DNA from: a virus
Direction: 5' to 3' (one strand)
IMG/VR virus record: IMGVR_UViG_3300028388_003590
Coordinates: 1 to 45,181 of that record
Length of the DNA stretch: 45,181 nucleotides
Each line of letters begins with the position of its first letter. Position 1 is the first letter of the stretch. Shown piece by piece: positions 2,094 through 28,659 of this stretch. The translations under genes were made by a program, and so were the position numbers. The notes beneath the pieces are model-generated. The model ran no database searches. It had not been told where the DNA came from and was given only the letters and a program-made list of their open reading frames with translations.

Positions 2094-2107
2094 AGTTATT
2101 GGAAACT
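2094..2107 (-). repeat. Near copy of the recurrent 14-bp word
   Basis: On the minus strand this reads AGTTTCCAATAACT, 13 of 14 bases equal to the word AGTTTCCAACAACT found exactly at four other places in the window. It is between genes, in the leader of the minus-strand gene starting at 2012, and has the same orientation as transcription. Confidence 0.5.
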
Positions 2108-2117
2108 ATGGATAGGG

Positions 2118-2459
2118 CTACCAATTTTTATTTTGGAGCCATTGTTCATGGCTAATAGCTGAGAGGGTATCGAGGTGAGTTTCAGCTTTAAGTAGCAGGA
2201 CTTTATTGAGCAGATCGGCTTGTGAGTAGCCATTGATTTGTGTATGGGGGTCTAGGTATTCATTTTCTAGGTTTAGGTCGATACGTTGTGTAGTCCAGTG
2301 GAATAATGCGCATGAGAGGACATAGAGTTTATATTTTTCAAAGTAGATGTCATCTGTGTACTCTTTAGATTGTTCTAGCCATTGTTTTTTATCGGCCCAA
2401 GAGAGTGTTTTACGGAGTTGGTGATAAAGGGTAAGTTCTTGGTTAGTGAAGAAAGCCAT
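2118..2459 (-). CDS. Hypothetical protein, 113 aa
   Basis: I do not recognise a family. The product is highly helical and rich in aromatic residues and Gln/Asn (LYHQLRKTLSWADKKQWLEQ), with a central Cys-containing helix (LYVLSCALFHWTTQRI). No membrane segment or signal peptide is evident. Its start overlaps the stop of the small gene before it (TAATG), which points to translational coupling in one minus-strand transcript. Confidence 0.6.
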   Translation of the reverse strand: MAFFTNQELTLYHQLRKTLSWADKKQWLEQSKEYTDDIYFEKYKLYVLSCALFHWTTQRIDLNLENEYLDPHTQINGYSQADLLNKVLLLKAETHLDTLSAISHEQWLQNKNW

Positions 2460-2611
2460 TACTTTGCCTTTTTATTTTTGAGGGTGTGTAGGAATGTTTT
2501 GAGGTCGATTAGCTCTTTTACCAACTGGTGGTGTATGGAGTGTGGGATAAGTGGGTTGCAGAGTGTGGCTTCGATGCGTTTAGTGCGGTTCTGTGCGTAC
2601 TGTTTTGTCAT
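2459..2611 (-). CDS. Micro-protein, 50 aa, paralogue of the next gene upstream
   Basis: A short frame encodes a basic 50-residue protein beginning MTKQYAQNRTKRIEATL and containing LVKELIDLKTFL. It is clearly a duplicate of the 47-residue protein encoded just upstream on the same strand: both start MTK, share a KRIE/KKIE segment and an ELIDLKT helix, and keep stretches of identical DNA (plus-strand word GAGGTCGATTAGCTCT and the start context TTTTGTCATTATGTA). It overlaps the following gene by TAATG. Two short helices are predicted; the function is unknown, possibly a small regulator. Confidence 0.6.
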   Translation of the reverse strand: MTKQYAQNRTKRIEATLCNPLIPHSIHHQLVKELIDLKTFLHTLKNKKAK

Positions 2612-2650
2612 TATGTATTCCTTAGAATAATGTGTGAGTCTTATTGAGGG

Positions 2651-2794
2651 TTATGAGTATTTTTCAACCAGTAGTGTTTTGAGGTCGATTAGCTCTAGTT
2701 TAAGCTCATTGAGTAAGTAGTTTGGGATGGCATTATTGTTTTTGATGGTAGTTTCAATCTTCTTAATGCGGTTTAGAATTTTGCGTTTTGTCAT
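2651..2794 (-). CDS. Micro-protein, 47 aa, first gene after a minus-strand promoter
   Basis: The frame encodes MTKRKILNRIKKIETTIKN followed by a Leu-rich helix (LNELKLELIDLKTLL). It is the paralogue of the 50-residue protein that follows. The ribosome binding site CAGGAG lies just upstream of the ATG at 2794, and a TTGACA promoter with an overlapping palindrome lies 30-90 bases further upstream. It resembles a two-helix hairpin of the small-antirepressor or coiled-coil kind, but this is only a structural impression. Being first in the transcript and duplicated, it is probably expressed. Confidence 0.6.
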   Translation of the reverse strand: MTKRKILNRIKKIETTIKNNNAIPNYLLNELKLELIDLKTLLVEKYS

Positions 2795-2827
2795 TATGTA
2801 TACTCCTGAGAGTTAAAGGGTTGATTT

Positions 2828-2882
2828 AAGATTAAAGAATAATCTTGAGAATAGATGTACATACCTATTTGCGGTGTGTCAA
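2828..2882 (-). promoter_or_regulatory. Sigma-70-like promoter with palindromic operator
   Basis: On the minus strand a perfect -35 TTGACA (2882-2877) is followed after 17 bases by TACATC (2859-2854), a weak -10. Immediately downstream, where transcription would begin, is the inverted repeat AAGATTA-N5-TAATCTT (2828-2846). A palindrome over the start point is the usual place for a repressor operator. It would drive the small minus-strand genes from 2794 down. Confidence 0.5.
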
Positions 2883-2905
2883 CCATGTTTATAAAAAAAC
2901 TTTTT

Positions 2906-3397
2906 TTAATCTTCGATTTCCTCAGTGAAGCAAGTCTCTTGGTTAAAGTAGGAGATGTCAACATAGGTATTTAGGACTCTTTGGGCGTATTTGAACTCTG
3001 ATCGACCTCTTTCACATTTACCTTTGAATCCTCTGTTGTATTGTGCGAGGGCTTTGCATTTTTTATTATTATTGAGAGTGAGGAACTTTTTAATAGCTGA
3101 GATGCCTGCTTGTGTGTAATTGCAATGCCCAGAGGTGGGGCAGTGGTATTTGGGTAGAACCCCTAGTGGGCCTTTTGCGCCTTTGTGGCTTGTCAGGTTT
3201 TCAAATCTTGTTTCTTGGTAAGCGACTGAAATGGCGAGTATGGGGTCTACTTTTTGTTTAATGGCTTCCTTAGCGACTTGACGACAAATCTTCATTCGGC
3301 TTGGAATCGTTTTTGATATTTTCTTTTGGTAGGATGTAGATGCGTTAGGTGACATAATGTTAAGCATGACTATCCAACATAAGTTTGTAAGGTTCAT
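2906..3397 (-). CDS. Lytic transglycosylase (SLT domain), probable endolysin
   Basis: This enzyme would cleave the glycan strands of peptidoglycan between MurNAc and GlcNAc. The SLT-fold signature is visible in order: the catalytic Glu62 in AYQETRFE, then GAKGPLGVLP (the family GAxGxMQxxP), then ALAQYNRG (AYNxG) and YAQRVLN at the end. Residues 1-18 form a hydrophobic N-terminus (LCWIVMLNIM) that may be a signal or signal-anchor sequence, so export through the Sec system is plausible. Length, 163 residues, suits a single-domain phage enzyme. Its ATG overlaps the RusA stop (ATGA), so it is in the same operon. An A7-C-T7 dyad on the plus strand lies just past the stop and may act as a weak terminator. 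An internal virion role instead of lysis cannot be excluded. Confidence 0.85.
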   Translation of the reverse strand: MNLTNLCWIVMLNIMSPNASTSYQKKISKTIPSRMKICRQVAKEAIKQKVDPILAISVAYQETRFENLTSHKGAKGPLGVLPKYHCPTSGHCNYTQAGISAIKKFLTLNNNKKCKALAQYNRGFKGKCERGRSEFKYAQRVLNTYVDISYFNQETCFTEEIED

Positions 3398-3786
3398 AGG
3401 GCTTCCTTTATTTGGACTTCTGTCCGCGCAGGCTTGTTGCGTTCTGCGTAGTATTTATAAGCGTGTATGATGCAGACTTGTGCATCATCTTGTAGTGTTT
3501 TATTGAGTGCGTCTAAGACTGCTTTGATGATGTTGTCAAGGTCAGGTCTTTTAGTATGCAGAATAAGGCCATCTGGATGCTTTTTAGGCATAAGCCTTTG
3601 GGGTCTTGGGAAGATTGCATTGAGTGTGACCTCGATTGGGCCTTGTATGTTTTGCTCTTGGATAAGTGCTTTGAGGGCATTCTCATAATCTTTTGTTCTT
3701 TTGGGAGTATAGGCTCTGCCATTGCCAAATCTTGGTCTACCTTTAGGTACAGGAGTACCTAGTAGGGTAATGGTGATGGGAGTCAT
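3394..3786 (-). CDS. rusA: RusA family Holliday-junction resolvase
   Basis: RusA enzymes are dimeric Mg2+-dependent nucleases that cut branched DNA, in phages usually recombination or packaging intermediates. The 130-residue product shows the full pattern: the N-terminal strand LLGTPVPKGRPRF, YTPKRTKDYE, the acidic motif KRPDLDNIIKAVLDAL (Asp82 and Asp84) and DDAQV (Asp100, Asp101), all metal-binding positions in the family. The ATG at 3786 is chosen because it overlaps the previous stop (ATGA) and has GGAAA upstream; an in-frame start 21 bases earlier is less likely. The downstream transglycosylase starts inside its stop codon. Confidence 0.93.
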   Translation of the reverse strand: MTPITITLLGTPVPKGRPRFGNGRAYTPKRTKDYENALKALIQEQNIQGPIEVTLNAIFPRPQRLMPKKHPDGLILHTKRPDLDNIIKAVLDALNKTLQDDAQVCIIHAYKYYAERNKPARTEVQIKEAL

Positions 3787-3998
3787 TGGAATTTCCTTAC
3801 AGTCCAATACTGGCCTTTGTTTTTACGATCATCATCTAAGTAAACAACTGAGTAGTTATTCTCTTTCATAAATCGAGTTGCTTCATAGAAGCAATCAAAG
3901 TGACCAATGAGTTCTTGTTCTTGATCAACAGACAAGTAAATCTCAACCCATTCGTATGGCTTTTTATCTCTAGTGTCGGTGATAATGACTTCTCTCAT
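3783..3998 (-). CDS. Hypothetical protein, 71 aa
   Basis: This is a small acidic/aromatic protein of unknown function, with a beta-type start (EVIITDTRDKKPYEWVEIYLSV) and a helix that follows (CFYEATRFMKENN). No known motif is recognised. It overlaps the rusA start by ATGA. Its own start context, GAGTAAAGTCATGA, is identical to that of the ABC-ATPase gene further upstream, which suggests that the ABC-GNAT gene was inserted just before this gene. Confidence 0.65.
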   Translation of the reverse strand: MREVIITDTRDKKPYEWVEIYLSVDQEQELIGHFDCFYEATRFMKENNYSVVYLDDDRKNKGQYWTVRKFQ

Positions 3999-4008
3999 GA
4001 CTTTACTC
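3995..4008. repeat. 14-bp direct repeat, left copy, flanking the ABC-GNAT gene
   Basis: TCATGACTTTACTC occurs here and again at 4877-4890, in the same orientation, bracketing the broken ABC-GNAT gene. On the minus strand each copy contains the start codon of the gene that follows it. Confidence 0.75.
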
Positions 4009-4014
4009 TCTTTC

Positions 4015-4377
4015 TCAAATGTTGCCGATATATTCGTGTGAATAGGTCAATCTATATTTATGTATCATTTTATTTTTTGCGTCATATTTATTTAGACCTT
4101 TATAGTCTAAGCGTTTTTTTTTATTTTTAGAGGTGGCTATCCACTTTGTAGACCTTTCTCTACTCTCACCTAGCTTTGGGTGAGCGGTTTTAGCAAAAAA
4201 TCTTTTATTGCTGTTAATGTATAAGCTTGCTACGTAGTCAGATAGTTGCTTACTTAATCCTAAACCTTGAAAATCTGGGTGTATTACCAACCTATGACCT
4301 TTAAAAGCATTTTTTATATACCCATTAGGGAATGATAAAACGGAATAGAACCCAACCAAGTGAGAATCGGAACTCAT
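4015..4377 (-). CDS. GNAT acyltransferase fragment (C-terminal half of a broken ABC-GNAT gene)
   Basis: The visible frame gives 120 residues with a GNAT core: GFYSVLSFPNG (beta 4), then RLVIHPDFQGLGLSKQLSDYV, the acetyl-CoA-binding R/Q-x-x-G-x-G/A region with a following helix, and a C-terminal RLTYSHEYIG. Reading further upstream in the same frame, to about 4470, gives more family sequence with no start codon (NPCSTKAWKFFKDFHYL). This matches the acyltransferase half of proteins in which an ABC ATPase is fused to a GNAT domain (the COG2401 type). The phage Mu Mom DNA-modifying enzyme has the same general fold. Here the upstream part is out of frame with the ATPase, so a full product is not made. 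The ATG at 4377 would remove the first strand and helix, so activity is doubtful. Confidence 0.7.
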   Translation of the reverse strand: MSSDSHLVGFYSVLSFPNGYIKNAFKGHRLVIHPDFQGLGLSKQLSDYVASLYINSNKRFFAKTAHPKLGESRERSTKWIATSKNKKKRLDYKGLNKYDAKNKMIHKYRLTYSHEYIGNI

Positions 4378-4412
4378 AATCCAGCAGTTAGCTGATTTGT
4401 TTATATTCCCTG

Positions 4413-4880
4413 TTAAATAGTGAAAGTCTTTGAAAAACTTCCAAGCTTTGGTTGAACAAGGATTGATTTCTCGTCAAAAACTTTATCGTTATTTTTTAAG
4501 GCAAAAGCTAGATCGCATCTGTGTTTTTCCCCATTACTTAGTACATGATATGGTCTGCATAAAGATGGTATTGTTCCTAGACCCATAGACATAAGCAGAT
4601 CAAGGTCTACTTGACTAGCAATAGCTTTATTAGGATTCGGCTTAAAGTTTGTACTTTCCCCAAACTCTTTTAACAAACTGCTTTTACCAGTACCGCTTGG
4701 GCCTACGATAACTCCAATGTTGAAGTTTGTAGGTTTAATAAAGCTTGGAACAACAAATGAGCTTTCACCAGAGAACTCATAATCGTTGGCCTTTGATAGT
4801 TGTATTAGGGTCTCGTCTAAGTCAACCTTACTTTTTAAAGTGTTGCCCCCTACTGTTTGGTTATCAAATAAACCTTTCAT
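4413..4880 (-). CDS. ABC-type ATPase fragment (N-terminal half of a broken ABC-GNAT gene)
   Basis: The 155-residue frame has a clear Walker A (GPSGTGKS, residues 60-67), an ABC signature (LSNGEKHR, about 114-121) and a Walker B ending VFDE (about 134-137). The D-loop, switch His and the rest of the domain that should follow are missing; instead the frame runs 18 residues out of phase and stops. After a -1 shift at the codon following FDE the reading continues directly into the GNAT domain. So a segment between Walker B and the GNAT domain was lost, with a frameshift, or the assembly has an error here. The ATG overlaps the previous stop (ATGA). Intact relatives are usually predicted to modify a nucleic acid or protein; this copy is probably inactive. 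Confidence 0.75.
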   Translation of the reverse strand: MKGLFDNQTVGGNTLKSKVDLDETLIQLSKANDYEFSGESSFVVPSFIKPTNFNIGVIVGPSGTGKSSLLKEFGESTNFKPNPNKAIASQVDLDLLMSMGLGTIPSLCRPYHVLSNGEKHRCDLAFALKNNDKVFDEKSILVQPKLGSFSKTFTI

Positions 4881-4890
4881 GACTTTACTC
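4877..4890. repeat. 14-bp direct repeat, right copy, flanking the ABC-GNAT gene
   Basis: This is the second copy of TCATGACTTTACTC (first at 3995-4008), 882 bases away. It covers the stop of the 62-residue gene and the start of the ATPase. The identity is consistent with insertion or exchange of the ABC-GNAT gene by recombination. Confidence 0.75.
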
Positions 4891-5065
4891 GCTTCCTGAC
4901 AATGTAGAGTGCTTGGTTAGGGCCACCTTTTTTGATTTGCACTTGTTTCTTAAATTTAGAGAACTGAGTGCCATAGCCCCGTTCAACCCAAAGCTGACAT
5001 TCAGCCTTAGCTTCTAGGTAATTAGGTGTAATTAGAGTTATATCCCAAGGTATTTGTTTCTTCAT
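4877..5065 (-). CDS. Hypothetical protein, 62 aa, first gene of a minus-strand operon
   Basis: The start at 5065 (MKKQIPWDITLITPNYLEAK) has AAGGAC 7-12 bases upstream and is preferred to in-frame codons further up. The protein is basic, with a helix (NYLEAKAECQLWVERGYGTQF) and a Lys-rich strand region (FKKQVQIKKGG) ending in YIVRKRVKS. I do not recognise a family. The end, with Gly-Gly-Pro and basic residues, could bind nucleic acid, but this is speculative. It leads the operon that runs to the transglycosylase. Confidence 0.6.
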   Translation of the reverse strand: MKKQIPWDITLITPNYLEAKAECQLWVERGYGTQFSKFKKQVQIKKGGPNQALYIVRKRVKS

Positions 5066-5114
5066 GGTTTTGTCCTTTGTGCATACACAAGATAGGTGCA
5101 TTCCCTTACTACTA

Positions 5115-5174
5115 ATACTAGCATATTGCAAGGCTTAATTTGATCTTTATACTTTTATGGGAGTTGGTTATAAT
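5115..5174. promoter_or_regulatory. Divergent promoter region
   Basis: The gap between the minus-strand operon (start 5065) and the plus-strand genes (start 5211) holds a perfect TATAAT at 5169-5174 facing right, with only a poor -35. Facing left is an extended -10, TGCTAGTAT (5123-5115), about 45 bases before the first minus-strand ATG. Both assignments rest on consensus matching only. Confidence 0.35.
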
Positions 5175-5210
5175 ACGTCAATACTGATTAGTAAGGCTTG
5201 GAGTGTCATA

Positions 5211-5471
5211 ATGAGAATTAATATGGATTTGGTATTTAAGTTTTTAAGCTTGGGTTTAATCCCAGCTTTGATGTGGGTCAACTCGATTTCTGTTGAGGTT
5301 GCTTTGTTAAAGCGTGAACTTCAATTAAATCAAGCTAGGATTGAAAAGGTGGAAGCTCAGCAGAATAAAATACTAGAGTTGGTAAAAGACAATCAAATTG
5401 CTCTCAAAGGCATGGTTGTAACGATGAACTTTATGAAAGATATATTGCAGGACATTAAAAATGCTAAGTAG
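5211..5471 (+). CDS. Small membrane protein with coiled coil, holin/XhlA-like
   Basis: The ATG at 5211 follows TTGGAG at a good distance; an in-frame ATG at 5157 lacks this. The 86-residue product has one hydrophobic segment (about 7-24, FKFLSLGLIPALMWVNSI) followed by a heptad-like helix (LLKRELQLNQARIEKVEAQQNKILELV). This single-membrane-pass plus coiled-coil design is seen in phage holin accessory and spanin-like proteins, but also in many unknown phage proteins. It overlaps the next gene, which has the same architecture, by 11 bases. Confidence 0.6.
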   Translation: MRINMDLVFKFLSLGLIPALMWVNSISVEVALLKRELQLNQARIEKVEAQQNKILELVKDNQIALKGMVVTMNFMKDILQDIKNAK

Positions 5472-5727
5472 TCTAGCAAAAGGGGTCGCATTAATTATGC
5501 TTTGGGTCTTTGGTGCTTTAATTTACCAAGCCTTATTACATGGTGAGCATTATGCCATGCCTATTAGCCCAAAGAAGCGCAAAGCAGTACCTATGCTTTT
5601 AGAAATCAAGGTAAGAGATACTAAGCTTGATATGGGCGTTAAAGAGTTAGAACAACAAGTCAACCAAATGGCACTTGATATAATAGAATTAAAAATGAAA
5701 GAGGGAATCCCAAATGGATATAAATGA
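5461..5727 (+). CDS. Small membrane protein with coiled coil
   Basis: The 88-residue product has an N-terminal membrane segment (about 5-25, LAKGVALIMLWVFGALIYQAL), a basic KKRK stretch near residue 40, and a C-terminal heptad helix (VKELEQQVNQMALDIIELKM). The topology resembles inner-membrane spanins or holin partners, yet a separate spanin pair exists at 39809-40169, so a lysis role is uncertain. It starts within the previous gene and its end overlaps the MazG gene by 14 bases, so the three are translated as a unit. Confidence 0.6.
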   Translation: MLSSLAKGVALIMLWVFGALIYQALLHGEHYAMPISPKKRKAVPMLLEIKVRDTKLDMGVKELEQQVNQMALDIIELKMKEGIPNGYK

Positions 5728-6040
5728 TTATCAACATAAGGCAAGAGAGACTGCTAAGTACCCAACAGAGCATGGTTTGACATATTGTGCTTTAGGTTTA
5801 ACGGGCGAAGCTGGAGAGGTGGCGGATAAGATTAAGAAGATCATTCGTGACAAGGGTGGAGTAGTGAGTGCGGATGATCGTATAGAACTCGCTAAGGAGT
5901 TGGGTGATGTGCTTTGGTATATTGCTAACTTAAGCTTTGAGTTGAATCTTGCCTTAGACTTTGTGGCGGGTAAGAACATTGACAAATTAATGAGTCGTTT
6001 AGAGCGAGGTGTTATCTCAGGTGAGGGAGATAACCGATAA
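5714..6040 (+). CDS. mazG: MazG-like nucleotide pyrophosphohydrolase
   Basis: MazG-type enzymes hydrolyse nucleoside triphosphates to monophosphate and pyrophosphate; phage versions are thought to adjust the dNTP or ppGpp pool. The 108-residue product carries the all-alpha NTP pyrophosphatase motif: GLTGEAGEVADKIKK (Glu32, Glu35, Asp38) and KELGDVLWYIANL (Glu62, Asp65), the acidic residues that hold Mg2+. Length fits a single-domain MazG. The ATG lies inside the previous gene and its stop overlaps the next ATG (TAATG). Confidence 0.92.
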   Translation: MDINDYQHKARETAKYPTEHGLTYCALGLTGEAGEVADKIKKIIRDKGGVVSADDRIELAKELGDVLWYIANLSFELNLALDFVAGKNIDKLMSRLERGVISGEGDNR

Positions 6041-6213: not shown

Positions 6214-6536
6214 GAGTAGAGAAGAAAGTCACCGATGGCGTTAGGATTGTAAACGCGGGCGGAGAATTAGTCTTAACAGACAGAGAATTAGATTTGAGTA
6301 TTGAGCTACCCAAAGCAGGCGCAAAGTTGAATGAGGAGCAAATTATGGCCATTCAAGAGTCTGTTGAAGATCATGGAGACTTCTTCCCACCTATTACTTC
6401 TGTTGAGAGAGTAGATGGCTTATTTGCAAGACTTGATCTTGGTGGGTATTGGTCTGGTTGGGTAGTTGGTACAGACATTGAAGATGTTATGGAGCAACTT
6501 GATGATCTGCATGGTGTGTATAATGATTACCTCTGA
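6210..6536 (+). CDS. Hypothetical protein, 108 aa
   Basis: This is an acidic protein without a recognised domain. It has an early beta region (VTDGVRIVNAGGELVLTDRELDLSIELP), a helix (EEQIMAIQESVEDHGDFF) and a C-terminal part with GGYWSGWVVGTDIEDVMEQLD. No signal peptide or membrane segment is evident. It shares an ATGA junction with the gene before it and runs 10 bases into the convergent DUF3310 gene. Confidence 0.65.
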   Translation: MRVEKKVTDGVRIVNAGGELVLTDRELDLSIELPKAGAKLNEEQIMAIQESVEDHGDFFPPITSVERVDGLFARLDLGGYWSGWVVGTDIEDVMEQLDDLHGVYNDYL

Positions 6537-6826
6537 GACTTAATCTTATCAATCTCACTTTGTAAGTAGAAGATTGCCTTTTCTAAGTCCTCGATTTCTT
6601 TGTTTGGGTCTTTACGCCCTGCTCTGCAAATGTACTTTACTGCATTGCCTAGCGCAAAGTTTAACTCCCATGCGTTTATGACGTTTATGGCTTCATAAGT
6701 ACCTGGTCGATAATGGCTTGGATGATCAACAGAGTTGTGAGAATCTTCTGAAAAAGTTGTTGGAAACTCTTGATAGGTGGTGTCTGTATCTTGAAGTTGA
6801 TTAATAAATTGTTCTTTTGTTGTCAT
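6527..6826 (-). CDS. DUF3310 protein (phage nucleotide-kinase-like annotation)
   Basis: DUF3310 proteins are common in tailed phages and are often labelled nucleotide kinase without biochemical proof. The core is plain: VDHPSHYRPGTYEAINVINAW (from about residue 33), then LNFALGNAVKYICRAGRKD and KEIEDLEKAIFYLQSEI. The N-terminal 30 residues are a Gln/Thr-rich extension that contains one exact copy of the recurrent 14-bp word as coding sequence (EFPTTF). It is a single gene on the minus strand between plus-strand genes, overlapping tail-to-tail with the one before it. Its promoter must lie in the AT-rich gap 6827-6910. Confidence 0.9.
   Translation of the reverse strand: MTTKEQFINQLQDTDTTYQEFPTTFSEDSHNSVDHPSHYRPGTYEAINVINAWELNFALGNAVKYICRAGRKDPNKEIEDLEKAIFYLQSEIDKIKSQR
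6755..6768 (-). repeat. Recurrent 14-bp word AGTTTCCAACAACT, copy in DUF3310 gene
   Basis: This is an exact copy on the minus strand, the coding strand of the gene. It extends to 19 identical bases (GAGTTTCCAACAACTTTTT) shared with the intergenic copy at 28646. Confidence 0.85.
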
Positions 6827-10956: not shown

Positions 10957-11920
10957 AAAGAAGTTTAAAGCAAAGCCCTTAGCTAAGGGGCTTGGTTTAG
11001 TCTCAAATACTCATACAGTGCAAACTGTGGGTGGTAAAACTATAACAGTGACCGCTCAACCCTCAAGTGTGGAAAAGGGTGAGAGGAATTATGAGATAGC
11101 CGATGCTAAAAGACGTATCTTAAATAGACTACCTACCCAAGATGGCAAGGTAAGAAACTTAATGCTGAATGGCATAAAGAAAGCCGAAGCGGTTGCAGGT
11201 CGATATGATACAAGACGCAATAGATCAACTGGTGAGCTTAGGCCTGCTGATAAAGCTACTCTTAATACTGAGTTAGAACAAGTGGTAAGAGATACAGTGG
11301 TTACTGCAAGAGATCAGATACTTGAAAACTTAGAGGGTTCGGTAAAGACTTATTTGATTGGTATAAGACGAAGTTTACCAGATCGAAGTGCCTTACCTAT
11401 GTCTGTGATCAACCAAATGGCCCAAAGAAAAGCTATTCAAATTTACAATCAACCTAGTGGTAAAAGCGGTATGAATACTGCTCAAAGACTTGGTGGTGTT
11501 GGGGCAAGAATGGAAATTGAGCTAACCAAGATGGTAGACATGGGCTTGTCAGCTAGGATAGACAACCGAAGAAAACTAAAGAAAGCCTTAGTAGACCCAA
11601 AGGGGGCAAACAGGTCTTGTTTAGCTAAGTCCATCTCCAGAATAAACAGAACAGAACAGAACAGAGCGATGCACTCCGCCACCATAGAAGCCATGACCTC
11701 AATAGGGGTGTCGTTCTTTTATTGGCGGTTAAGTGGGGCGCATAAGGACTATGGTGGCTCAGAGGTATGTGAGGTTTTATCTACATCAACAGGTGGAGAT
11801 GTAGCAAGCTTACTGCCTAGTAATTTTGGCGGTAGTTTAGCAGGGCTTTACACAGGTTCTAGTGTACCCGATTTGCCACATCCTAACTGTATGTGTAGTT
11901 TAGAGCCCATAGTTGTCTGA
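10949..11920 (+). CDS. Minor head protein, Mu gpF-like head morphogenesis protein
   Basis: Proteins of the Mu gpF/SPP1 gp7 group sit next to the portal and act in head assembly or DNA ejection. The N-terminal two thirds are helical and basic. The C-terminal domain shows the usual signature: SISRINRTEQNRAMHSATIE, then FYWRLSGAHKDYGGSEVCEV, and the closing VPDLPHPNCMCSLEPIV, where the Cys-x-Cys and His match the family's conserved PHPxCxC. It overlaps the portal end. After its stop there is a gap of 86 bases with an extended -10 promoter. Confidence 0.87.
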   Translation: MARKKFKAKPLAKGLGLVSNTHTVQTVGGKTITVTAQPSSVEKGERNYEIADAKRRILNRLPTQDGKVRNLMLNGIKKAEAVAGRYDTRRNRSTGELRPADKATLNTELEQVVRDTVVTARDQILENLEGSVKTYLIGIRRSLPDRSALPMSVINQMAQRKAIQIYNQPSGKSGMNTAQRLGGVGARMEIELTKMVDMGLSARIDNRRKLKKALVDPKGANRSCLAKSISRINRTEQNRAMHSATIEAMTSIGVSFFYWRLSGAHKDYGGSEVCEVLSTSTGGDVASLLPSNFGGSLAGLYTGSSVPDLPHPNCMCSLEPIVV

Positions 11921-14365: not shown

Positions 14366-15160
14366 ATGGCTGATCTTAATTCACTCATTAGACGCATTAG
14401 AGCAAGAGTACATGATAATGTCAGCCACACATCTCGCGAAGATGGTCGCCCTTTATACTTAGACTCTTATTACATTGATAGTATTGAGAGTGGTCTAGGT
14501 CGTATGAACCTAGACATTGATAGCTCATATACGATTGCCACTTTGCCTGTAAAATATGAGTACCTTGCAGAGCTTAGGGGCACAATCAATATGTGCTATG
14601 TTCGTGGGGCAGAGGGAGCTACCTCAGATGTAGAGGACTTTCCAGATGTGCCCGATCAAATTGTCACTGTACCGCAACTGACAGTACAGAGACAGCAGAT
14701 GCCACTAGATGGGCCAAAGTTTTGGTTGCGTCTAGGGGAAAAGCTAGAGAATGAATACTTAGAAGCCTTAGCCCGATTAAAAGATCGAGGTGAGGAGGGC
14801 GCAGAGATTCAGCAATACACCATGAGTCGTATGTCTTTACGAACAGGCCGAAGAATGCCTTATGTATATGACAAACCAATTACTCCACCAGAGGGTTTTG
14901 CGGTATCAGTGGCGAATGGTGTTGTCAGTGTAGTTTGGGGTATCGTGTATGATGAATACTTTAATTACTATGAACTACAAAGAGCTACCTCTCCGCAGTT
15001 TCCAACAACTTTGACTTCCACAGTATATGCGTCTAGTGATAACCATGATAATGTATTTAATGACCAACCAGAAGTGGGCACTTGGTATTATCGTTTAGCG
15101 ATTTACAACTCAAATGATCTTGTATCATATACACAATCAGCGAGTGTAGAAGTCCAATGA
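14366..15160 (+). CDS. Head-tail adaptor with C-terminal fibronectin-III-like domain
   Basis: Residues 1-165 are helical (LNSLIRRIRARVHDN, LYLDSYYIDSIESGLGRMN) and fit head-completion adaptor proteins that bind the portal. Residues about 172-264 look like one FN3/Ig-like domain: ITPPEGFAVSVANGVVSVVW, YYELQRATSPQFP and GTWYYRLAIYNSNDLVSYTQ, with the Trp and Tyr positions usual for FN3. Such a domain could bind the capsid surface or carbohydrate. The gene overlaps the next by 4 bases (ATGA). One copy of the 14-bp word lies in the FN3 part. Confidence 0.65.
   Translation: MADLNSLIRRIRARVHDNVSHTSREDGRPLYLDSYYIDSIESGLGRMNLDIDSSYTIATLPVKYEYLAELRGTINMCYVRGAEGATSDVEDFPDVPDQIVTVPQLTVQRQQMPLDGPKFWLRLGEKLENEYLEALARLKDRGEEGAEIQQYTMSRMSLRTGRRMPYVYDKPITPPEGFAVSVANGVVSVVWGIVYDEYFNYYELQRATSPQFPTTLTSTVYASSDNHDNVFNDQPEVGTWYYRLAIYNSNDLVSYTQSASVEVQ
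14997..15010 (+). repeat. Recurrent 14-bp word, copy in adaptor gene
   Basis: This is an exact AGTTTCCAACAACT on the coding strand, encoding part of QFPTTL. The same FPTT residues are encoded by the copy in the DUF3310 gene, although the two proteins are unrelated. Confidence 0.85.
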
Positions 15161-16892: not shown

Positions 16893-18728
16893 ATGGCCTA
16901 TTCAAGACCAGACGTATACATTGAAGAAATTTTAACACCCGAAAATGCACCTAATGGTATTTCAACGAGCATTGCCAGTTTCTTAGGTTTTGCTGAAAGA
17001 GGGCCAGCGAATACACCAATCTTCGTTGACAGCTTTAGTTCTTTCAAGCGAACCTTTGGGGGTGCAGTTGCAGAAGAATCACTTTATTATAGTGTTCGTT
17101 CATTCTTTGAGAATGGCGGTTCTGCTTGTTATATTATTCGCTTGATTGACGTTTCAGCGTGTGAGGGAGTGGGTGCTACTACTTTCCCTGCTTACAACAT
17201 TGCTGATAACCAAGATAGTGCAGATATGCTTAAGTTCTCAGCAGGCTTTAGAGGTCTTAAGAACTTTGGTACTTGGGGTAGCGCGCTTGAGGTTGAGATT
17301 CGCAAGTCTAGCACTTATGCCAATAGCTCATTAAGTGCGGATGCGTCAGCAACAGATACATCTTTAAAGCTAACTTCAATCAGTGGTTTAGTAGCTGGTG
17401 ACATTCTCAAGATTACTGATGCAGGGAACGCTGAGACTTTTGTTAAAGTGACTGCGGTTCGTAGTGCGGTTGAGGGTGGCTCTATTGTACGTTTTGTAGA
17501 CATTTCAAGTGCCTTATCAAGTGCAATCGTTGCAGTAGGTTCCACTGTTGAGCTATTGGCTTATGACATTACTGTTAAGCTCGATGGCGAAGCAGTAGAG
17601 ACTTTTAATCGTCTAAGCATGAACCCCGACTCAGATCGCTACTTTGAGACTATTGTTAATGATGAACAAGTTGGTTCACGTTATATCTTAGTAGAAGATT
17701 TAGAGACTGGTGTTCTATTATCAAATGACCGAGAAATCTTAACAGCTAATCTTAGTGGTGCGCTTACCTTTACAAGCGGTGGCCAAGATGAAAAAGCAGG
17801 GTTTGACCTACAAGCTGACTTGATTGACGTTGCGCTTCCAAAGCTATCTGCTAAGAAAGCGGTTAATCTTCTTTGCGTACCGCCATCACTCAGCGCAAGC
17901 GGTAAGATTCCAGCAACTGACGTACCCGTACTTCATGCAAGTCTACTAGAGTTCTGCGGTGACCGCATGGATATGTTTGCGATCTTAGACGCACCTTTAG
18001 GACTAGAAGCAAGCGCAAGTGGGGCAGACTCAGTTGGTCAGTATCGCAATGAGGATTTAGGTATTGATACTTACTGGGGTGCTTTATATTACCCACACAT
18101 CTCTGTACCAAAAGTCATTGGCGGTTCACAACTTGTGACTATTCCACCAAGCGGTGCGGTAGCAGGTCTTTATAGCCGAGTTGACTCTATCCCTGCGCCT
18201 AGAGGTGGTATTTCAACATCTCCTGCGGGCCATGGTGAGTTTGGTGAGCTTCGTGGTATTAGTGGCCTTGAGGTTGAGGTAAGTGACTCAGTTCATGGTG
18301 ATCTTAATCTTCTAGGCATCAACTGCTTACGAGTGGTTGACCAGGGCGTAGGATTACCATCTGTAAATGTTCTAGGCGCACGAACTCTAAGCACTACCTT
18401 AGACTTCCGCTATATCAATGTAAGACGCATGATGACTTTCATTGAGAAGAATGTTAAGCAAATTGGAGAGCGTAGCTTGTTCCGCAACAATAGCCCTATC
18501 TTATGGTCAGAGCTTACCTCTCAGATTGAGACTTTTTTAGTATCTCGCTTAGAGCTAGGTGAGTTAGCTGGCGCAAACAAGCAAGAAGCTTTTTATATTA
18601 AAATTGATAATGAAACAAATACAGCCGATAACATCAAACAAGGCATCTTGGTTGGTGAAATTGGTGTGGCACTTCTTCGCCCTGCGGAGTTCATTATCTT
18701 CCGCTTTAGCCAAATTCAATCTAACTAA
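16893..18728 (+). CDS. Contractile tail sheath protein
   Basis: The 611-residue sheath subunit surrounds the tube and drives contraction. The N-terminus has the standard opening SRPDVYIEEILTPENAPNGISTSIASFLGFAERGPANTPIFV (read in parts), where the first strand exchanges with neighbours, and SVRSFFENGGSACYIIRL. The C-terminal conserved domain reads DFRYINVRRMMTFIEKN, NNSPILWSELTSQIETFL and EFIIFRFSQ. The middle (about 150-290) is an inserted, outward-facing domain with Ala/Ser-rich loops. The start has GAGGTAGAG. It is followed after 11 bases by the tube gene. Confidence 0.96.
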   Translation: MAYSRPDVYIEEILTPENAPNGISTSIASFLGFAERGPANTPIFVDSFSSFKRTFGGAVAEESLYYSVRSFFENGGSACYIIRLIDVSACEGVGATTFPAYNIADNQDSADMLKFSAGFRGLKNFGTWGSALEVEIRKSSTYANSSLSADASATDTSLKLTSISGLVAGDILKITDAGNAETFVKVTAVRSAVEGGSIVRFVDISSALSSAIVAVGSTVELLAYDITVKLDGEAVETFNRLSMNPDSDRYFETIVNDEQVGSRYILVEDLETGVLLSNDREILTANLSGALTFTSGGQDEKAGFDLQADLIDVALPKLSAKKAVNLLCVPPSLSASGKIPATDVPVLHASLLEFCGDRMDMFAILDAPLGLEASASGADSVGQYRNEDLGIDTYWGALYYPHISVPKVIGGSQLVTIPPSGAVAGLYSRVDSIPAPRGGISTSPAGHGEFGELRGISGLEVEVSDSVHGDLNLLGINCLRVVDQGVGLPSVNVLGARTLSTTLDFRYINVRRMMTFIEKNVKQIGERSLFRNNSPILWSELTSQIETFLVSRLELGELAGANKQEAFYIKIDNETNTADNIKQGILVGEIGVALLRPAEFIIFRFSQIQSN

Positions 18729-18739: not shown

Positions 18740-19261
18740 ATGGCAGTATTAAGTAAAGACGTATACAGAGGTTATAAATTCAGAGTGACCTTATCTAGTA
18801 CAAGTAATCAATTTAATTTAGTTCGCAGTGCTTTCCAAAAAGTCACAGGCATGAAATCATCTGTTGAGGTGGTTGAATACCGAGAGGGCAATATGCCTGA
18901 CCGAATGGAAAAAATGGCGGGTATGATGACTTATGATTCAGTCACTCTTGAGAGAGGGATTTCATACGATAATGACTTTAATCTATGGATGAAGAATGTT
19001 TGTGACGTTGCCACCACTGGTGTCATCCCTGCAAGCTCTAGCCTAAATGACGTAGGGGCAAACTCTTATCGTTGTAATGTAATTATCAAGCTTTTTAACA
19101 AGCAAGGCCAAGCTGTTAAGAAGTATACATTAAAAGATGCTTGGCCCAGTGAATACACTATTGGTGATTTTGACGCGACTTCTAATGATGTAGTTATTTC
19201 TAGCTTAGTTTTACAGCATCATGGAATCGAAGAAGAAGATTTACTAGGCCAAGAAGCATAA
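18740..19261 (+). CDS. Tail tube protein (T4 gp19-like)
   Basis: The product stacks in hexameric rings to form the rigid inner tube. It has the gp19 family features: YRGYKFRVTLSSTSNQFNLV, FQKVTGMKSSVEVVEYREG, the loop MPDRMEKMAGMMTYDSVTLERG and a final strand NDVVISSLVLQHHGIEE. Length (173 residues) matches the family. The ribosome binding site AAGGAG is good. After its stop comes a 52-base gap holding a 12-bp palindrome ACTATATATAGT that runs into one copy of the 14-bp word. Confidence 0.95.
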   Translation: MAVLSKDVYRGYKFRVTLSSTSNQFNLVRSAFQKVTGMKSSVEVVEYREGNMPDRMEKMAGMMTYDSVTLERGISYDNDFNLWMKNVCDVATTGVIPASSSLNDVGANSYRCNVIIKLFNKQGQAVKKYTLKDAWPSEYTIGDFDATSNDVVISSLVLQHHGIEEEDLLGQEA

Positions 19262-19280
19262 AAAGACACACACTATATAT

Positions 19281-19294
19281 AGTTTCCAACAACT
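19281..19294 (+). repeat. Recurrent 14-bp word, intergenic copy between tube and chaperone genes
   Basis: This is an exact AGTTTCCAACAACT, 19 bases before the ATG at 19314. It is joined to the palindrome ACTATATATAGT (19271-19282). It is one of two exact copies that are not coding. Confidence 0.85.
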
Positions 19295-19313
19295 CAAAAG
19301 AAACAGGTAAAAC

Positions 19314-20141
19314 ATGATTACAGATAACAACAATGTTGTACTTCCTATTGGATATGAAGTAGATGGTATTCGTTATAGAAATGTCGTGATTGATGAAATG
19401 ACAGGCATTGACGAAGAAAACCTATCTTCGCGTAAAGTTCGCAATAATGGCGCAAAGGCTATCTCAATTCTGCTTAGACGTTGTATACAGTCGATTGAGG
19501 GTGTACTTGAGCAGAAGCGTGACCCTTTGAGCCTTATTGACGAAAAGTATGTTCGCAATATGTACGTTGCGGATAGAGATTATCTTATTCTTTGCATTAG
19601 AGTCCTAAGTGGCGATTCTGAGCTTGTGACTTCGGTTGAGTGTACGGACTGTGGTGCAGAGAATGACCATCATATTGATCTAAAGAGCTTAGACGTATAT
19701 GAGTGGGATGAAAATGAGCCAGTAGAACTTAGTTTAGAACTCCCTAGAGGTTTCTATCATAAGGCGAGTGGCGAATATAAAAACCGAGTGGTTTGGGCTT
19801 TCCCAAAGGGAGTGGGCCAAGAGCGTATTGCTTCAATGCCTGAGAATGAAATGGGCACTAATCTAATCGCCATTGGGCTAAAAGAGGTCGATGGCTTAGA
19901 GACTATCCCTATGCCAGATGATGTACGAAAGCTAAGTCTTAGAGATCGCAATGCCTTTGCAGAAGCTATTGTGGATAATGCGGTAGGCGTAGATACAAAA
20001 GTAAATGTCACTTGTGATGTATGTGGCTTTGAGACAACTGCCGAGGTAAACACTGTGGGTTTTTCCAATTTGGGTCGCCAACAGACCCGCAAGCCCTCAA
20101 GCGTTGGGATAAATGGGCGGAGACTACGCAAAAAGCGTTAA
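19314..20141 (+). CDS. Tail assembly chaperone / baseplate protein with two CxxC pairs (0-frame product)
   Basis: The 275-residue zero-frame product lies between tube and tape measure, the usual place for tail assembly chaperones. It has two Cys pairs, ECTDCGAEN (Cys110, Cys113) and TCDVCGFE (Cys234, Cys237), which together would bind one zinc ion, as in T4 gp26-like proteins of contractile tails. The last 25 zero-frame residues (SNLGRQQTRKPSS and basic end) follow a slippery site at 20057-20063. The alternative -1 product is described separately. Start: AACAGG is a weak binding site. Confidence 0.8.
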   Translation: MITDNNNVVLPIGYEVDGIRYRNVVIDEMTGIDEENLSSRKVRNNGAKAISILLRRCIQSIEGVLEQKRDPLSLIDEKYVRNMYVADRDYLILCIRVLSGDSELVTSVECTDCGAENDHHIDLKSLDVYEWDENEPVELSLELPRGFYHKASGEYKNRVVWAFPKGVGQERIASMPENEMGTNLIAIGLKEVDGLETIPMPDDVRKLSLRDRNAFAEAIVDNAVGVDTKVNVTCDVCGFETTAEVNTVGFSNLGRQQTRKPSSVGINGRRLRKKR

Positions 20142-24459: not shown

Positions 24460-24471
24460 GGGGGATAAGTT

Positions 24472-26892
24472 ATGCCAAGCCAAAGACCAAAGAAAAGAAA
24501 AGCTAAAGTCTCACAGAAAAAGAGAACAGCGAAGCCTGTAAAAAGAGCATCCACCCGTAAACCAAGCAGAGAGCCTACTGAATACTCAGTAGAACCAAAA
24601 AACGCGATAGTGAATGATGCTTATAAAGAGAGTATAGCTACTAAAATTGGTCTTACAGAGCTTCAACCTTATGTTTGGATAACTCTTAAAGGCGATAATA
24701 ACTTAGAATCAAGTTTTTACGCAACAAGCAATGAAGCATTTACAAGTAGCTTCGTACCAAGCCGACATGGTTTGAAATCTGTTAATCTGTCAAATGAGGT
24801 AGGCAAATACCCTAAAGTCGAGTTTGATTTATACGTTCCAGATTATCGTAAACTAGATTTCAGTATGCAAGTGGGTGATGTGAAAAGAGATAATCACCCA
24901 GGTAGACCTTTAGAGAAGTTTAGGATTGGGGCTAGGTTTGATGTCAAGTGGGGCTACTCAAGTAGCTATACGATATGGAAAGACTTTAAAGTCATTGAGA
25001 GAGACATCTCCTTTGACGAGGGAACAGCCATTTTATCAGTGACAGGGATTATAGGCGCAAGATTAAGGGCCACAACATCTTCTGAGGTCTTTACAAATAC
25101 TTATGGGTACTCTGCGGTTGACCAGATAGCAGAATTATTAGACTTAAGTGTTAATAAAGAGGAACTTTTAGCAGAAGAACTATCAAAGTTTTATGACGAG
25201 AATGAGCAATTAGTCATGGCGGGTAGTGACCTAGGTATGGCCATGTGGAAAACTAGTCAAAAGTTTGATGTTGAGATGTATTTTAATCCTGAGATTAAAG
25301 AGGTTCGATTTAGTACACCTTTTAAGTATGAGTTAATCAAAAGAGGAGCTAGACCATTAAAAATGATCTATGGCTTTCCTACATCCATTATCTCTACGAT
25401 TGATGTGGAAACAAAGTTTCCAAAGAAAAAAGGTACTGGTAAAGGAGTTAAAAAATCTAACTCTCAAGATGTTGGTGGCATAACAACAAAAAAGGGTAAA
25501 AAGGGTGACACTGTATTTAGTGTAGTCGTGGCAGGTCGCATCTCTATTGGCGGTAATATACTAGACATAGGTAATCCTTTAGCGCTTGCCAATAGCTTAC
25601 AACCAAAATGGGTATTCAGTACCTTAGATGAAAAGGGCAATAATAAACCCAGTAATGCAATCACGAATGCTTACAAAGTTTATCCTCGCTCTCAAGGGTA
25701 TGAGGTTAAGCTCGACTCAGACGTTAATGTCATTAATGATGTAAATAACACTAAGGCGGTAAAGGTATTTAAAAAAGTCACCTTATCCAAAGGTAAAACA
25801 ATAGTGTATGAAGAAAAGGAAGCCACTCTTACAGAGTATAATAAAAGAGTGATTCCTAGAGTTAGAGCAAATCAGATTGCAGTAAAGGTGCTAGGTTTAA
25901 AAGGGAGTGATAAGATTCTGTATGCTGAATACACAGTACCCAAAGAGTCTACTGATCAAGATCAGAGAAGAACAAGTGAATCTTCAAAGAAGAAAGAACA
26001 ATCACCACCTACAACCACAGTAGAAGCTACTTCCAAGAATGACCCATCGGCTCCAGAGGGTGAGGAAACAGAAGATCGCTATGTATGGAAAAATGTGTCA
26101 AAGGCTTATCATAGATTCCAAACTGACGCAGGTCGAAAGAATGACCCTAATACAGTAGCTAGTAAAAAAGATTTAGAAGATAAGTTAGCAGAGCTTCAAA
26201 AGCAAGCGGGTAAGAATGGTAATCAATATAAGATTGTAGAGAGAACCACAAAGGCAAAAGATAGTGGTGGCCGAGAATACGACAAGGATTACATTGTTGA
26301 GATTATGGAGAGGGTGAAAATCAGAAATGACCCTGCCAAAGCAGATAGCTCTAATGGTGAATCAACAAATAATGCTGAAAGTTCATCTGTTGATGACAAT
26401 GCTTCATCACCCTTTGCTCCCGTTGCACTGGGTGCAAGATCAAGCAATAGTAGTAAGAGAGTAGCTTTAACTAAATTAACGATTGGTCTTAAAACAGGCG
26501 ATTGGACTATGAGAGTGGGTAAGCTTATAGAATTGGTTGATCTTTATAAGACAATAGATGGCTTCTACTATGTAATAAGAGAAGAACATACGATTGATAC
26601 AAATGGTTTCAATACAGAAATCGAATGTCGCAAAGCGAGTCGTAAAGAGATAAATACTTATGGTCGAAATCGAATTACAGCTAAAGGGAGTAAGGGCAAT
26701 AAAGGTAAAGAATCAAAAAACAAAGGCACAAGAGAGTCAGCTAATGATGAAAAGGCAGGGTTAGGTGACAAAATTGATGTCGTTAATATGACTCTTAAGA
26801 AAAAAGAATCTCAAAGGGAAGCTGATAGACAAGCAAAGTTAAGAGCTAAGAGAGAAAGAGATCGCTTAAATGACATGAGAGATTTATTTTAG
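24472..26892 (+). CDS. Baseplate hub protein (gpD/gp27-like) with large insertion
   Basis: The 806-residue product has a basic, disordered N-terminus (KKRKAKVSQKKRTAKPVKRA, about 5-45), hub-like beta domains (about 60-300, with IGARFDVKWGYSSSYTIWKD, VIERDISFDEGTAILSVTG and WKTSQKFDVEMYFNPEIKEVRF), and a final hub domain near 665-725 (LKTGDWTMRVGKLIELVDLY, GFYYVIREEHTIDTNGF). Between them is about 300 residues of extra sequence with Lys-, Ser- and Glu-rich linkers. Hubs form a trimer between spike and tube. The C-terminal 80 residues are again charged and helical. The insertion is unlike the compact hubs of Mu or P2. Confidence 0.87.
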   Translation: MPSQRPKKRKAKVSQKKRTAKPVKRASTRKPSREPTEYSVEPKNAIVNDAYKESIATKIGLTELQPYVWITLKGDNNLESSFYATSNEAFTSSFVPSRHGLKSVNLSNEVGKYPKVEFDLYVPDYRKLDFSMQVGDVKRDNHPGRPLEKFRIGARFDVKWGYSSSYTIWKDFKVIERDISFDEGTAILSVTGIIGARLRATTSSEVFTNTYGYSAVDQIAELLDLSVNKEELLAEELSKFYDENEQLVMAGSDLGMAMWKTSQKFDVEMYFNPEIKEVRFSTPFKYELIKRGARPLKMIYGFPTSIISTIDVETKFPKKKGTGKGVKKSNSQDVGGITTKKGKKGDTVFSVVVAGRISIGGNILDIGNPLALANSLQPKWVFSTLDEKGNNKPSNAITNAYKVYPRSQGYEVKLDSDVNVINDVNNTKAVKVFKKVTLSKGKTIVYEEKEATLTEYNKRVIPRVRANQIAVKVLGLKGSDKILYAEYTVPKESTDQDQRRTSESSKKKEQSPPTTTVEATSKNDPSAPEGEETEDRYVWKNVSKAYHRFQTDAGRKNDPNTVASKKDLEDKLAELQKQAGKNGNQYKIVERTTKAKDSGGREYDKDYIVEIMERVKIRNDPAKADSSNGESTNNAESSSVDDNASSPFAPVALGARSSNSSKRVALTKLTIGLKTGDWTMRVGKLIELVDLYKTIDGFYYVIREEHTIDTNGFNTEIECRKASRKEINTYGRNRITAKGSKGNKGKESKNKGTRESANDEKAGLGDKIDVVNMTLKKKESQREADRQAKLRAKRERDRLNDMRDLF

Positions 26893-26936
26893 TGAAACAC
26901 CTCTCCCTTATATAGATGTATGATTAGGTAATAAAT

Positions 26937-28304
26937 ATGGATAACGCAGAATACCAAAGACGCTATTATGGCCGAGTTTATGGCAAACGTAGAGCTAGAG
27001 TGGCAGACAACCAAGACCCTGAAAAAAGGGGTCGTATTAAAGTAGAGAATACTGAGTTGTATGGCACAACCTTATCGCCTTGGTGTATGCCCTCTTATCC
27101 ATTCTATGGTGGCCGAGACTGTGGTTTTTTCTCAGTACCCCCTTTGGGTTCACTAGTTTGGATTGAGTGTGAGGAAGGTATACCAGAGTACCCTATATAC
27201 TCAGGTGGTTTTTTTGATAACGTTACCGATGGGCACTTTAGTGATGGTACTGAGGTAGAGGATAGCTTAGAGTTTCAATCTGAGCCTAGCTCAGTGCCAC
27301 CTCATGGCCGAGCGCATTATGATGGAAGTGATTTTGGTAATCTAAAAGGCTCTTATGGTGTGCCTGCATCTTCTTTTGAAGCTGAGTATGGCGAGGTCAC
27401 CATATTGCAAACCAAGACAGGTCACCGCTTAGAGTTTGATGATACAAGTGGTGGTGAGCGTATTGAGATTCACCATGCTAAAGGTGCGCATATTGAGATT
27501 TTACCAGATGGTTCAATCAACATTGCAACTGAGGGGAATATACTAACTAGATCATCTAGTCGTAAAGAGTTTGTCATAAACGATAGGGAAGAAACAGTTG
27601 GTAGTCATAAAGAGACTATTAATGGTGATCAACAGTCTAATATAGGCGGTGAGTCTACAACAAACGTAAATGGGGCTGTCAACTTATCTGCTGATACTGC
27701 AAGTGCCGACATAGATGGCCTTATTCAAGTTGAGGGTGGCTCTCTAAAAGCTACTATCTCAAATTTGTTAGATATAAGTTGTGGCAACGATTTATTATTA
27801 ACATCTTTTGGCAATATAGATTTAACAAGTGCGAATAAAGGGTTCTTTAGTTTCTCTAACGCTTTAGAAGTACCTACTTTGCCTTATGTTGCAGACTCCT
27901 TAACAATACAAGGATTAAATGGGAATGTAAGTATTACAAGCTCTGATTTACTAGGAGTAAATTATGGGTTGTTAGCTAGAGGTGGAGTAAGTCCTCAAGT
28001 ATATCTTGGTAATCTTAGTTTGCCTGAGTCCGTATTAAGTGTAAGTAGTGTACCTTTGATCAAAGAGCCTGCAATCATGGGTACTCAAATGAGTCTGTTA
28101 TTAGAGAGTATTTTTACTGCCCTAGATGCCTTTTTTACTTTAACATCTACGGGCGGTGTGACTCCTGGGTTCGGTGGGCCTAATCCTGTTTTGGGAACCG
28201 CTTCGACAACCGCTCAATTAGCTTTGGCTACTGCTAAACAGACATTTATGAACCCCGCAAGCCCATTAATCACCTCTGACTGTGTATATTTAAGTAAGGT
28301 ATAA
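26937..28304 (+). CDS. Baseplate spike protein (gp5/VgrG-like)
   Basis: The trimeric spike punctures the outer membrane. The OB-fold is about residues 12-110 (RVYGKRRARVADNQDPEKRGRIKV, WCMPSYPFYGG, FFSVPPLGSLVWIECEEG). Strands typical of spike stems follow (TKTGHRLEFDDTSGGERIEIHH, GAHIEILPDGSINIAT), then beta-helix repeats (REETVGSHKETINGDQQSNIGG) and finally a domain ending ITSDCVYLSKV. No lysozyme domain is present, unlike T4 gp5. The start has GGTAAT, a weak binding site, but the ORF begins cleanly. Confidence 0.92.
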   Translation: MDNAEYQRRYYGRVYGKRRARVADNQDPEKRGRIKVENTELYGTTLSPWCMPSYPFYGGRDCGFFSVPPLGSLVWIECEEGIPEYPIYSGGFFDNVTDGHFSDGTEVEDSLEFQSEPSSVPPHGRAHYDGSDFGNLKGSYGVPASSFEAEYGEVTILQTKTGHRLEFDDTSGGERIEIHHAKGAHIEILPDGSINIATEGNILTRSSSRKEFVINDREETVGSHKETINGDQQSNIGGESTTNVNGAVNLSADTASADIDGLIQVEGGSLKATISNLLDISCGNDLLLTSFGNIDLTSANKGFFSFSNALEVPTLPYVADSLTIQGLNGNVSITSSDLLGVNYGLLARGGVSPQVYLGNLSLPESVLSVSSVPLIKEPAIMGTQMSLLLESIFTALDAFFTLTSTGGVTPGFGGPNPVLGTASTTAQLALATAKQTFMNPASPLITSDCVYLSKV

Positions 28305-28307
28305 CTC

Positions 28308-28646
28308 ATGGCATTAAACGTACAACAATTAGCCACTGCTTTGGCGCAAGCTGACATTACAGTAATTAATAATATATATGCACGAAGCGCGACTTCGGGT
28401 GCAGTGCCACCAGTGATAGAGGAAGATGAATTAGAAGCCATTAACCAACGTGCCAACTTGTATGCTCAAGCAATTTACACTTGGGTCTTAACAGCCACAG
28501 TGAATACGAATGTGAATACTAATGTGACAACTACTCACGCTCCAGGAACAATTAATGTGACGGGTACTGCGGTTGCGCAAACAAACCCTGCACCTATTGC
28601 AGGTACAGGGGCAGGCACAGGCACAGGGATAGGTACCCTATCTTGA
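28308..28646 (+). CDS. Small virion-type protein with Thr/Gly-rich C-terminus
   Basis: The N-terminal 65 residues are helical (VQQLATALAQADITVINNIY, DELEAINQRANLYAQAIY). The rest is Thr/Asn/Val- and Gly-rich (VNTNVNTNVTTTHAPG, GTGAGTGTGIG), like short fibrous or tip segments. It is encoded directly after the spike, where tip or PAAR-like proteins are often found, but no PAAR motif is seen. The sequence stops 1 base into a copy of the 14-bp word. Confidence 0.6.
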   Translation: MALNVQQLATALAQADITVINNIYARSATSGAVPPVIEEDELEAINQRANLYAQAIYTWVLTATVNTNVNTNVTTTHAPGTINVTGTAVAQTNPAPIAGTGAGTGTGIGTLS

Positions 28647-28659
28647 GTTTCCAACAACT
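28646..28659 (+). repeat. Recurrent 14-bp word, intergenic copy after the spike block
   Basis: This is an exact AGTTTCCAACAACT, 12 bases before the ATG at 28672, in the only gap of this part of the operon. The identity with the copy at 6755 extends to 19 bases (GAGTTTCCAACAACTTTTT). Confidence 0.85.

Follow-up and report, generated by a model that had tools for sequence, protein, structure and literature searches.

Dispersed copies of a 14-bp word in a contractile-tailed phage and its relatives form the core of a conserved DNA site, a candidate target of an orphan ParB-family protein

Recurrence of the word in the window

Why does a phage genome carry one and the same 14-bp word, AGTTTCCAACAACT, at scattered sites in and between unrelated genes, and what might recognise it? 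The question arises from the 45,181-base virus record IMGVR_UViG_3300028388_003590, which was analysed over its full length and is called the window hereafter. It is a fragment without a parB gene, and its gene content is that of a contractile-tailed phage (terminase, tail sheath, baseplate hub). The first-pass annotation of this DNA had reported five copies, and suggested a binding site for a protein, an RNA target or a recombination word.

The five copies (cores starting at 6755, 14997, 19281, 28646 and 2094) are all correctly placed and oriented. Their excess over chance is borne out: the window contains 8 matches with at most two mismatches against a mean of 0.65 in dinucleotide shuffles, and none of 100 shuffles reaches 8. 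In a census of all words in the window, this one is the only 12- to 14-mer with four copies. Two further details are correct, the 19 bases common to the copies at 6755 and 28646, and the residues FPTT that the word encodes in two unrelated genes. The list of copies was incomplete, as a 26-bp profile derived from relatives adds two minus-strand sites (cores at 1160-1173 and 42802-42815), while a two-mismatch match at 17905 falls out. All in all, the original observation is correct but understated.

Conservation of the site among relatives

The relatives, a group of uncultured tailed phages, were gathered from a public viral collection by scans with a tail gene and the terminase, and notably comprise G001 (84,945 bases), G002 (81,258 bases), G003 (32,231 bases) and G004 (25,884 bases). 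A scan of viral contigs with the exact word yielded chiefly single chance matches, and three true relatives emerged from it. G001 carries an exact terminal repeat of 77 bases at its ends and is, therefore, probably a closed genome, the only one of the records that looks so. In the phage collection, no close relative was found: a megablast of window positions 1-25000 against cultured phages gave no match, and the nearest cultured terminase is 37% identical.

When the sites are stacked, conservation extends from position -10 to +16, with a moderately conserved MCCTA-t-caat block, the strongly conserved 14-bp core, and then TT. The word is the core of a motif of about 26 bp, MCCTAtcaat-A[GC]TTT[TC]CAA[CA]AACT-TT. 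At a threshold of at least 14 bits, the profile identifies seven sites in the window, 13 in G001, 20 in G002, six in G003, 14 in G017, 13 in G018 and 18 in G019; the relatives of 47-85 kb have 13-20 sites each, against one or two in shuffled genomes even at a looser threshold of 9 bits. The word is among the top recurrent 14-mers in G001, G002 and G003, where no prior word was given, as well as at the G019 locus. In four further terminase relatives, the short fragments G008, G011, G014 and G015, the window spelling is not matched even when two mismatches are allowed, a result that counts against the explanation preferred below. As a palindrome, the core is imperfect but better than expected from shuffled columns (p = 0.015), and the CCTA flank is one-sided.

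Each genome uses variants of its own across its sites (AGTTTCCAACAACT, AGTTTTCAAAAACT, ACTTTTCAACAACT and ACTTGTCAACAACT): the spelling is AGTTTTCAAAAACT in G001, A[CG]TTTTCAACAACT in G002, and AGTTTCCAA[CA]AACT in both G003 and G004. Comparison of the flanks groups the sites at homologous places, with their orientation mostly kept, and the sites stay orthologous across relatives although flanks and proteins have diverged. In seven orthologous groups, identity is 85-94% in the word, as against 30-67% in the flank upstream of it (-60 to -11). When words were shuffled among genomes within the groups, the mean number of identical within-genome pairs was 10.9, against the 36 observed (permutation p about 5e-5).

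The individual sites of the window illustrate this pattern. The copy at 1158..1183 (minus strand; core ACTTTCCAAAAACT at 1160-1173; 25.0 bits with the 26-bp profile) is intergenic and belongs to an orthologous group shared with G001 60292, G002 77313 and G003 6943. The next one, at 2092..2117 (minus strand; core AGTTTCCAATAACT at 2094-2107; 27.9 bits), lies in the leader of the minus-strand ORF 1647-2012. At 6753..6778 (minus strand; core AGTTTCCAACAACT at 6755-6768; 32.9 bits), the site falls within the start of a 99-amino-acid minus-strand ORF (6527-6826), the product of which is DUF3310-like by eye and is placed by PHROGs among nucleotide-kinase-type families; orthologous copies occur in G001, G002, G003, G006 and G009. 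The plus-strand copy at 14987..15012 (core AGTTTCCAACAACT at 14997-15010) is situated inside ORF 14366-15160, a tail-module gene with no assigned function. It has eight orthologous copies in four variants, with a word identity of 0.85 against 0.44-0.67 in the flanks. The residues encoded here shift with the variant (SPQFPTT in the window, SPDFSTT in G002), and it is, therefore, the DNA word that is kept and not the peptide.

The plus-strand copy at 19271..19296 (core AGTTTCCAACAACT at 19281-19294) separates a 173-amino-acid tail gene ending at 19261 from a baseplate-hub-like gene starting at 19314; the word identity in its seven orthologous copies is 0.90, against 0.33-0.57 in the flanks. At 28636..28661 (plus strand; core AGTTTCCAACAACT at 28646-28659; 31.6 bits), the site lies between ORF 28308-28646, the stop codon of which shares a base with the core, and ORF 28672-28986, and it has orthologues in G001, G002, G004 and G019. 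The seventh, at 42800..42825 (minus strand; core AGTTTTCAACAAGT at 42802-42815; 22.8 bits), is antisense inside ORF 42213-43682 and is the weakest of the seven, since the flank comparison with the relatives found no orthologue for it. As a separate observation on base composition, G strongly exceeds C in the first 2000 positions of the window (skew 0.52) and in the region around 56000-64000 of G001, and the skew elsewhere in the genome is far lower.

The first-pass annotation had named two outcomes that would speak against a functional word, namely the absence of an excess in relatives and an uncompensated loss; neither was observed, and where the word is changed in a relative, the change is the genome-wide variant of that relative. 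Of the three suggested roles, a binding site for a phage protein is the one that is upheld, by the excess in every close relative, the conserved orthologous positions and the genome-specific spelling. We have hardly any doubt that the word is genuine and kept by selection as a site of DNA recognition. The genome-specific variants are, judged by comparison of the sequences, the signature of a co-evolving DNA-binding protein.

Placement, spacing and orientation

Although ORFs make up about 95% of the DNA, 33 of the 91 sites in the seven genomes are located outside ORFs; the remaining ones are inside genes, on both strands. With respect to local transcription, 48 sites have the same direction and 32 the opposite one; the other 11 are located between genes of mixed direction. 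The assertion that all copies lie on the transcribed strand was a small-sample effect, to which the antisense copy at 42802 is already an exception in the window. Sites occur about every 3-6 kb across the genome, and they are spaced more evenly than expected by chance in G002 (p = 0.0002), G019 (p = 0.004) and G001 (p = 0.005); the regularity is less clear in G017 (p = 0.05) and G018 (p = 0.09). Taken together, placement, orientation and even spacing argue for a site that acts at the level of DNA and is needed throughout the genome; they speak against an RNA element, a promoter and a stoperator directed by transcription. The RNA target that had been suggested is not supported, as some 35-40% of the sites are antisense to local genes; a stem-loop was rejected on the same ground and also for its dyad pairs, which break between variants. 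The recombination word found no support in this analysis.

Two observations concern orientation itself. In G002, G019 and the window, the sites form arcs of common orientation, plus relative to the late genes from capsid to baseplate and mostly minus elsewhere, the copy at parB being the exception; a link of these arcs with replication was considered and rejected, as their borders coincide with no switch in GC skew. Furthermore, G001_37857 is in a gene region homologous to those of G002_16968 and G019_55935, and the orientation of the word is flipped between the genomes; the word in G001 is nearly palindromic.

An orphan phage ParB as candidate binder

ParB-like proteins are common in phages. 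In G001, a 302-amino-acid protein encoded at 33627-34535 has ParB_N and HTH_ParB domains (PF02195, 43.9 bits with a cut-off of 26.3; PF17762, 43 bits with a cut-off of 22.6). Homologues are present in G002, G017, G018, G019 and G024, which makes six word-bearing relatives with a ParB, G001 included. Four of these proteins were tested with TIGR00180 and score 81.8-93.4 bits (cut-off 58.45). The nearest solved relatives by sequence are Noc (best, E = 1e-22), Spo0J, ParB and KorB; with a predicted structure (mean pLDDT 73.8), the top Foldseek match is Noc 7nfu (E = 1.9e-11), ParB and KorB being close behind. The motifs GxRRxxA and ENxxR are kept in seven of seven aligned ParB proteins, and CTP binding is predicted on that basis. 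The ParA-binding motif is absent. A ParA partner, the mark of a ParABS system, was found in none of nine records (no PF13614 match; 14 of 14 controls positive), among which only G001 looks closed. A scan of the genome collection with ParB returned distant homologues only.

The word stands 14-30 bp before the parB start codon in five of the six relatives (G001, G002, G017, G018 and G019); in G024, it is present, but not directly before parB. The window is a fragment, and we assume that its own phage encodes parB too.

In Caulobacter ParB and in Noc, residues 173, 179, 184 and 201 set the DNA preference (PMC7383237). We mapped position 201 by sequence alignment with Noc. The aligned residue is N in G002, G019, G017 and G018, the words of which share T5 and C10; it is R in G001, where C10 has become A, and T in G024, where T5 has become G. 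Positions 5 and 10 of the word are related by the dyad. Thus, the aligned residue 201 differs exactly where word position 5 or 10 differs. This covariation backs ParB as the binder in a manner that is suggestive and not proof, since there are two changes only and position 201 was mapped by alignment. G007, in which the word is absent, encodes a distant ParB of other sequence.

Several findings are at odds with this assignment. The chief one concerns G020, the ParB of which shares its recognition helix and the N at 201 with the proteins of word-bearing phages. A simple ParB model predicts the word there, and yet its 77.5 kb show no excess of it; G020 (55% GC) may use another site. The 26-bp motif lacks the symmetry of the palindromic parS and NBS, since CCTA is found at one of its sides only. 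Finally, other genes have the same pattern of presence, e.g., one for a 473-amino-acid HTH protein in word-bearing relatives that is absent from G007 and G020. Because of the G020 exception, the motif asymmetry and these other proteins, our preference for an orphan ParB-family protein as the phage-encoded binder, with the word as the core of dispersed, parS-like loading sites for a ParB clamp, is a modest one, just firm enough to make it the most likely reading.

Repeats of other kinds in these genomes were noted along the way. G020, the 77,536-base record behind L177, has about 28 copies of [CA]TTGACAAAC[AC]... (e.g., at 11135, 22120, 45263 and 63173), with A-rich and GATA-like elements downstream. 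They are probably phage promoters, of a family that spans the genome and has no relation to the word; as a ParB site, this motif was set aside for its promoter-like character and its confinement to one strand (29 of 30 sites, minus for nearly all copies). In G007, the minus strand carries all copies of AAAGTTTTGTCAAG, five of them with at most one mismatch and another three with up to two (e.g., at 55482, 69561, 85633 and 89430). Its reverse complement contains TTGACA, and these copies are possibly promoters; as a counterpart of the word, they were set aside for lying on one strand. G007 also has a tandem array of an 11-bp unit, CCTGTCTATAC, at 2744-2800, and G003:3686-3933 (L148) a tandem array of 14 copies of an 18-bp unit (GTACTGAACGCTTGTATA / GTACTGAACACTTGATCA, often alternating). 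A ribonucleotide reductase-like gene in G001:38780-41788 (L140:3980-6985) has an intein bearing a LAGLIDADG domain, and collagen-like short repeats (CCTTGTGGACCTTG and related) occur in G002:38076-38750 and in L232, probably in a fibre gene.

Alternative explanations

The sites could instead be dispersed operators or stoperators of a phage regulator other than ParB, repressing initiation or blocking elongation in the manner of the repressors of Cluster A mycobacteriophages. The broad anatomy is the same, with a short asymmetric word in many copies per genome and a motif that varies with the repressor between related phages (PMC6550527); over a third of the sites are intergenic in genomes that consist mostly of ORFs, and several DNA-binding candidates match the phyletic pattern. 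However, the Cluster A repressors belong to an unrelated family and their sites mostly keep one orientation with respect to transcription, while here the orientation is mixed and some sites lie between convergent genes (G001 50742 and 60292). Moreover, a tyrosine integrase was found in none of the nine records searched, with all controls positive. We regard such a regulator as unlikely, albeit with a real chance of being correct. A promoter element of a phage transcription system (e.g., a single-subunit RNA polymerase or a phage sigma factor), working in either orientation, is considerably less probable still. Many copies do precede a start codon by 10-30 bp, TATAAATA occurs in some flanks when these are read in the direction of the word, and the reverse complement resembles a T7-type promoter (14-bp block, AT-rich stretch, TAGG), an interpretation that was rejected because of the mixed orientation. 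But the information content stops at -10 and +16 with no second box, either direction leaves a third to a half of the sites pointing against genes, and the large proteins of G001, the genome that appears closed, do not include an RNA polymerase; a search with PF00940 (phage RNA polymerase) gave no match, its control being likewise silent.

We give equally little credence to the word as the mark of localised single-strand interruptions of the kind known from T5, phiKMV-like and tf-like Pseudomonas phages, for which an endonuclease of the phage would nick the packaged DNA. There too, a dispersed motif is conserved across a group of tailed phages, with 13 copies per genome in one described phage (PMC11780129), and an asymmetric motif would suit a strand-specific event; but the described motif is 9 bp long and confined to one strand (PMC11780129), as against about 26 bp on both strands here, and the analysis identified no protein as a likely nickase. 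Chance or an assembly artefact, which the small numbers in the window alone might have suggested, is practically out of the question: the sites recur, each genome having its own variants, in metagenome assemblies that are independent of one another, and the relatives refute it.

Comparison with known ParB-family systems and a possible mode of action

Among known systems, the best reading is that the phage system would work most like Noc with its NBS sites and KorB with its OB sites. Noc of Bacillus is a ParB-family CTPase without ParA that binds specifically at many sites scattered over the genome (PMC8429893, PMC4331003), and it is the nearest solved structure to the phage ParB. The NBS differs in being a 16-bp site of two symmetric half-sites, where the phage word is asymmetric and of another sequence. 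The phage proteins, furthermore, begin at the first strand of the ParB core, without the extra N-terminal segment for the amphipathic membrane helix of Noc, and they score about 82-95 bits with the Noc model TIGR04285, far below its cut-off of 315. KorB of plasmid RK2, another solved relative, is likewise a clamp of the ParB family and belongs to a mobile element. Its 16-bp OB sites lie both close to promoters and far from them, and KorB, sliding with CTP, can silence distant genes (PMC11790492). KorB acts with KorA and in plasmid partition as well; no ParA was found in the phage relatives, and the operator sequence is different. The parS/ParB systems of chromosomes and plasmids, including that of phage P1, share the protein family and site-specific nucleation; parS usually occurs in few palindromic copies near the origin and together with ParA, whereas here 13-20 sites are spread out, with neither ParA nor a ParA-binding motif.

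On the model of ParB, Noc and KorB, the phage ParB would bind as a dimer to the word, an imperfect palindrome, by way of its helix-turn-helix domain; the dimer would then form a clamp that depends on CTP and move from there along adjacent DNA. Evenly spaced loading sites would let ParB cover the phage genome and act globally; the possible outcomes include long-range silencing, as described for KorB (PMC11790492), timing of expression, and compaction or protection. ParB might also control its own gene via the site in front of parB. We advance as a bolder and rather speculative proposal, with less confidence than the identity of the binder itself, that these apparently virulent myophages (no integrase or ParA found) coat the whole genome with a CTP-dependent ParB clamp from evenly spaced, non-palindromic sites that are kept even inside essential genes, as a genome-organising or global silencing system. 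Our literature search, which covered few subscription papers, returned no description of dispersed sites for a phage ParB.

ParB-like proteins are widespread on mobile elements, often as orphans (2025 survey, PMC12704722). Here, a phage ParB is paired with a candidate target, in the form of a 26-bp motif, a list of sites for each genome, and natural variants of site and protein with a difference at a single aligned specificity residue. What orphan ParBs do in a phage thereby becomes directly testable, and these phages offer a natural system for the co-evolution of site and protein outside ParB and Noc. If the clamp model is true, they would have a counterpart of KorB and Noc that acts over a whole lytic genome.
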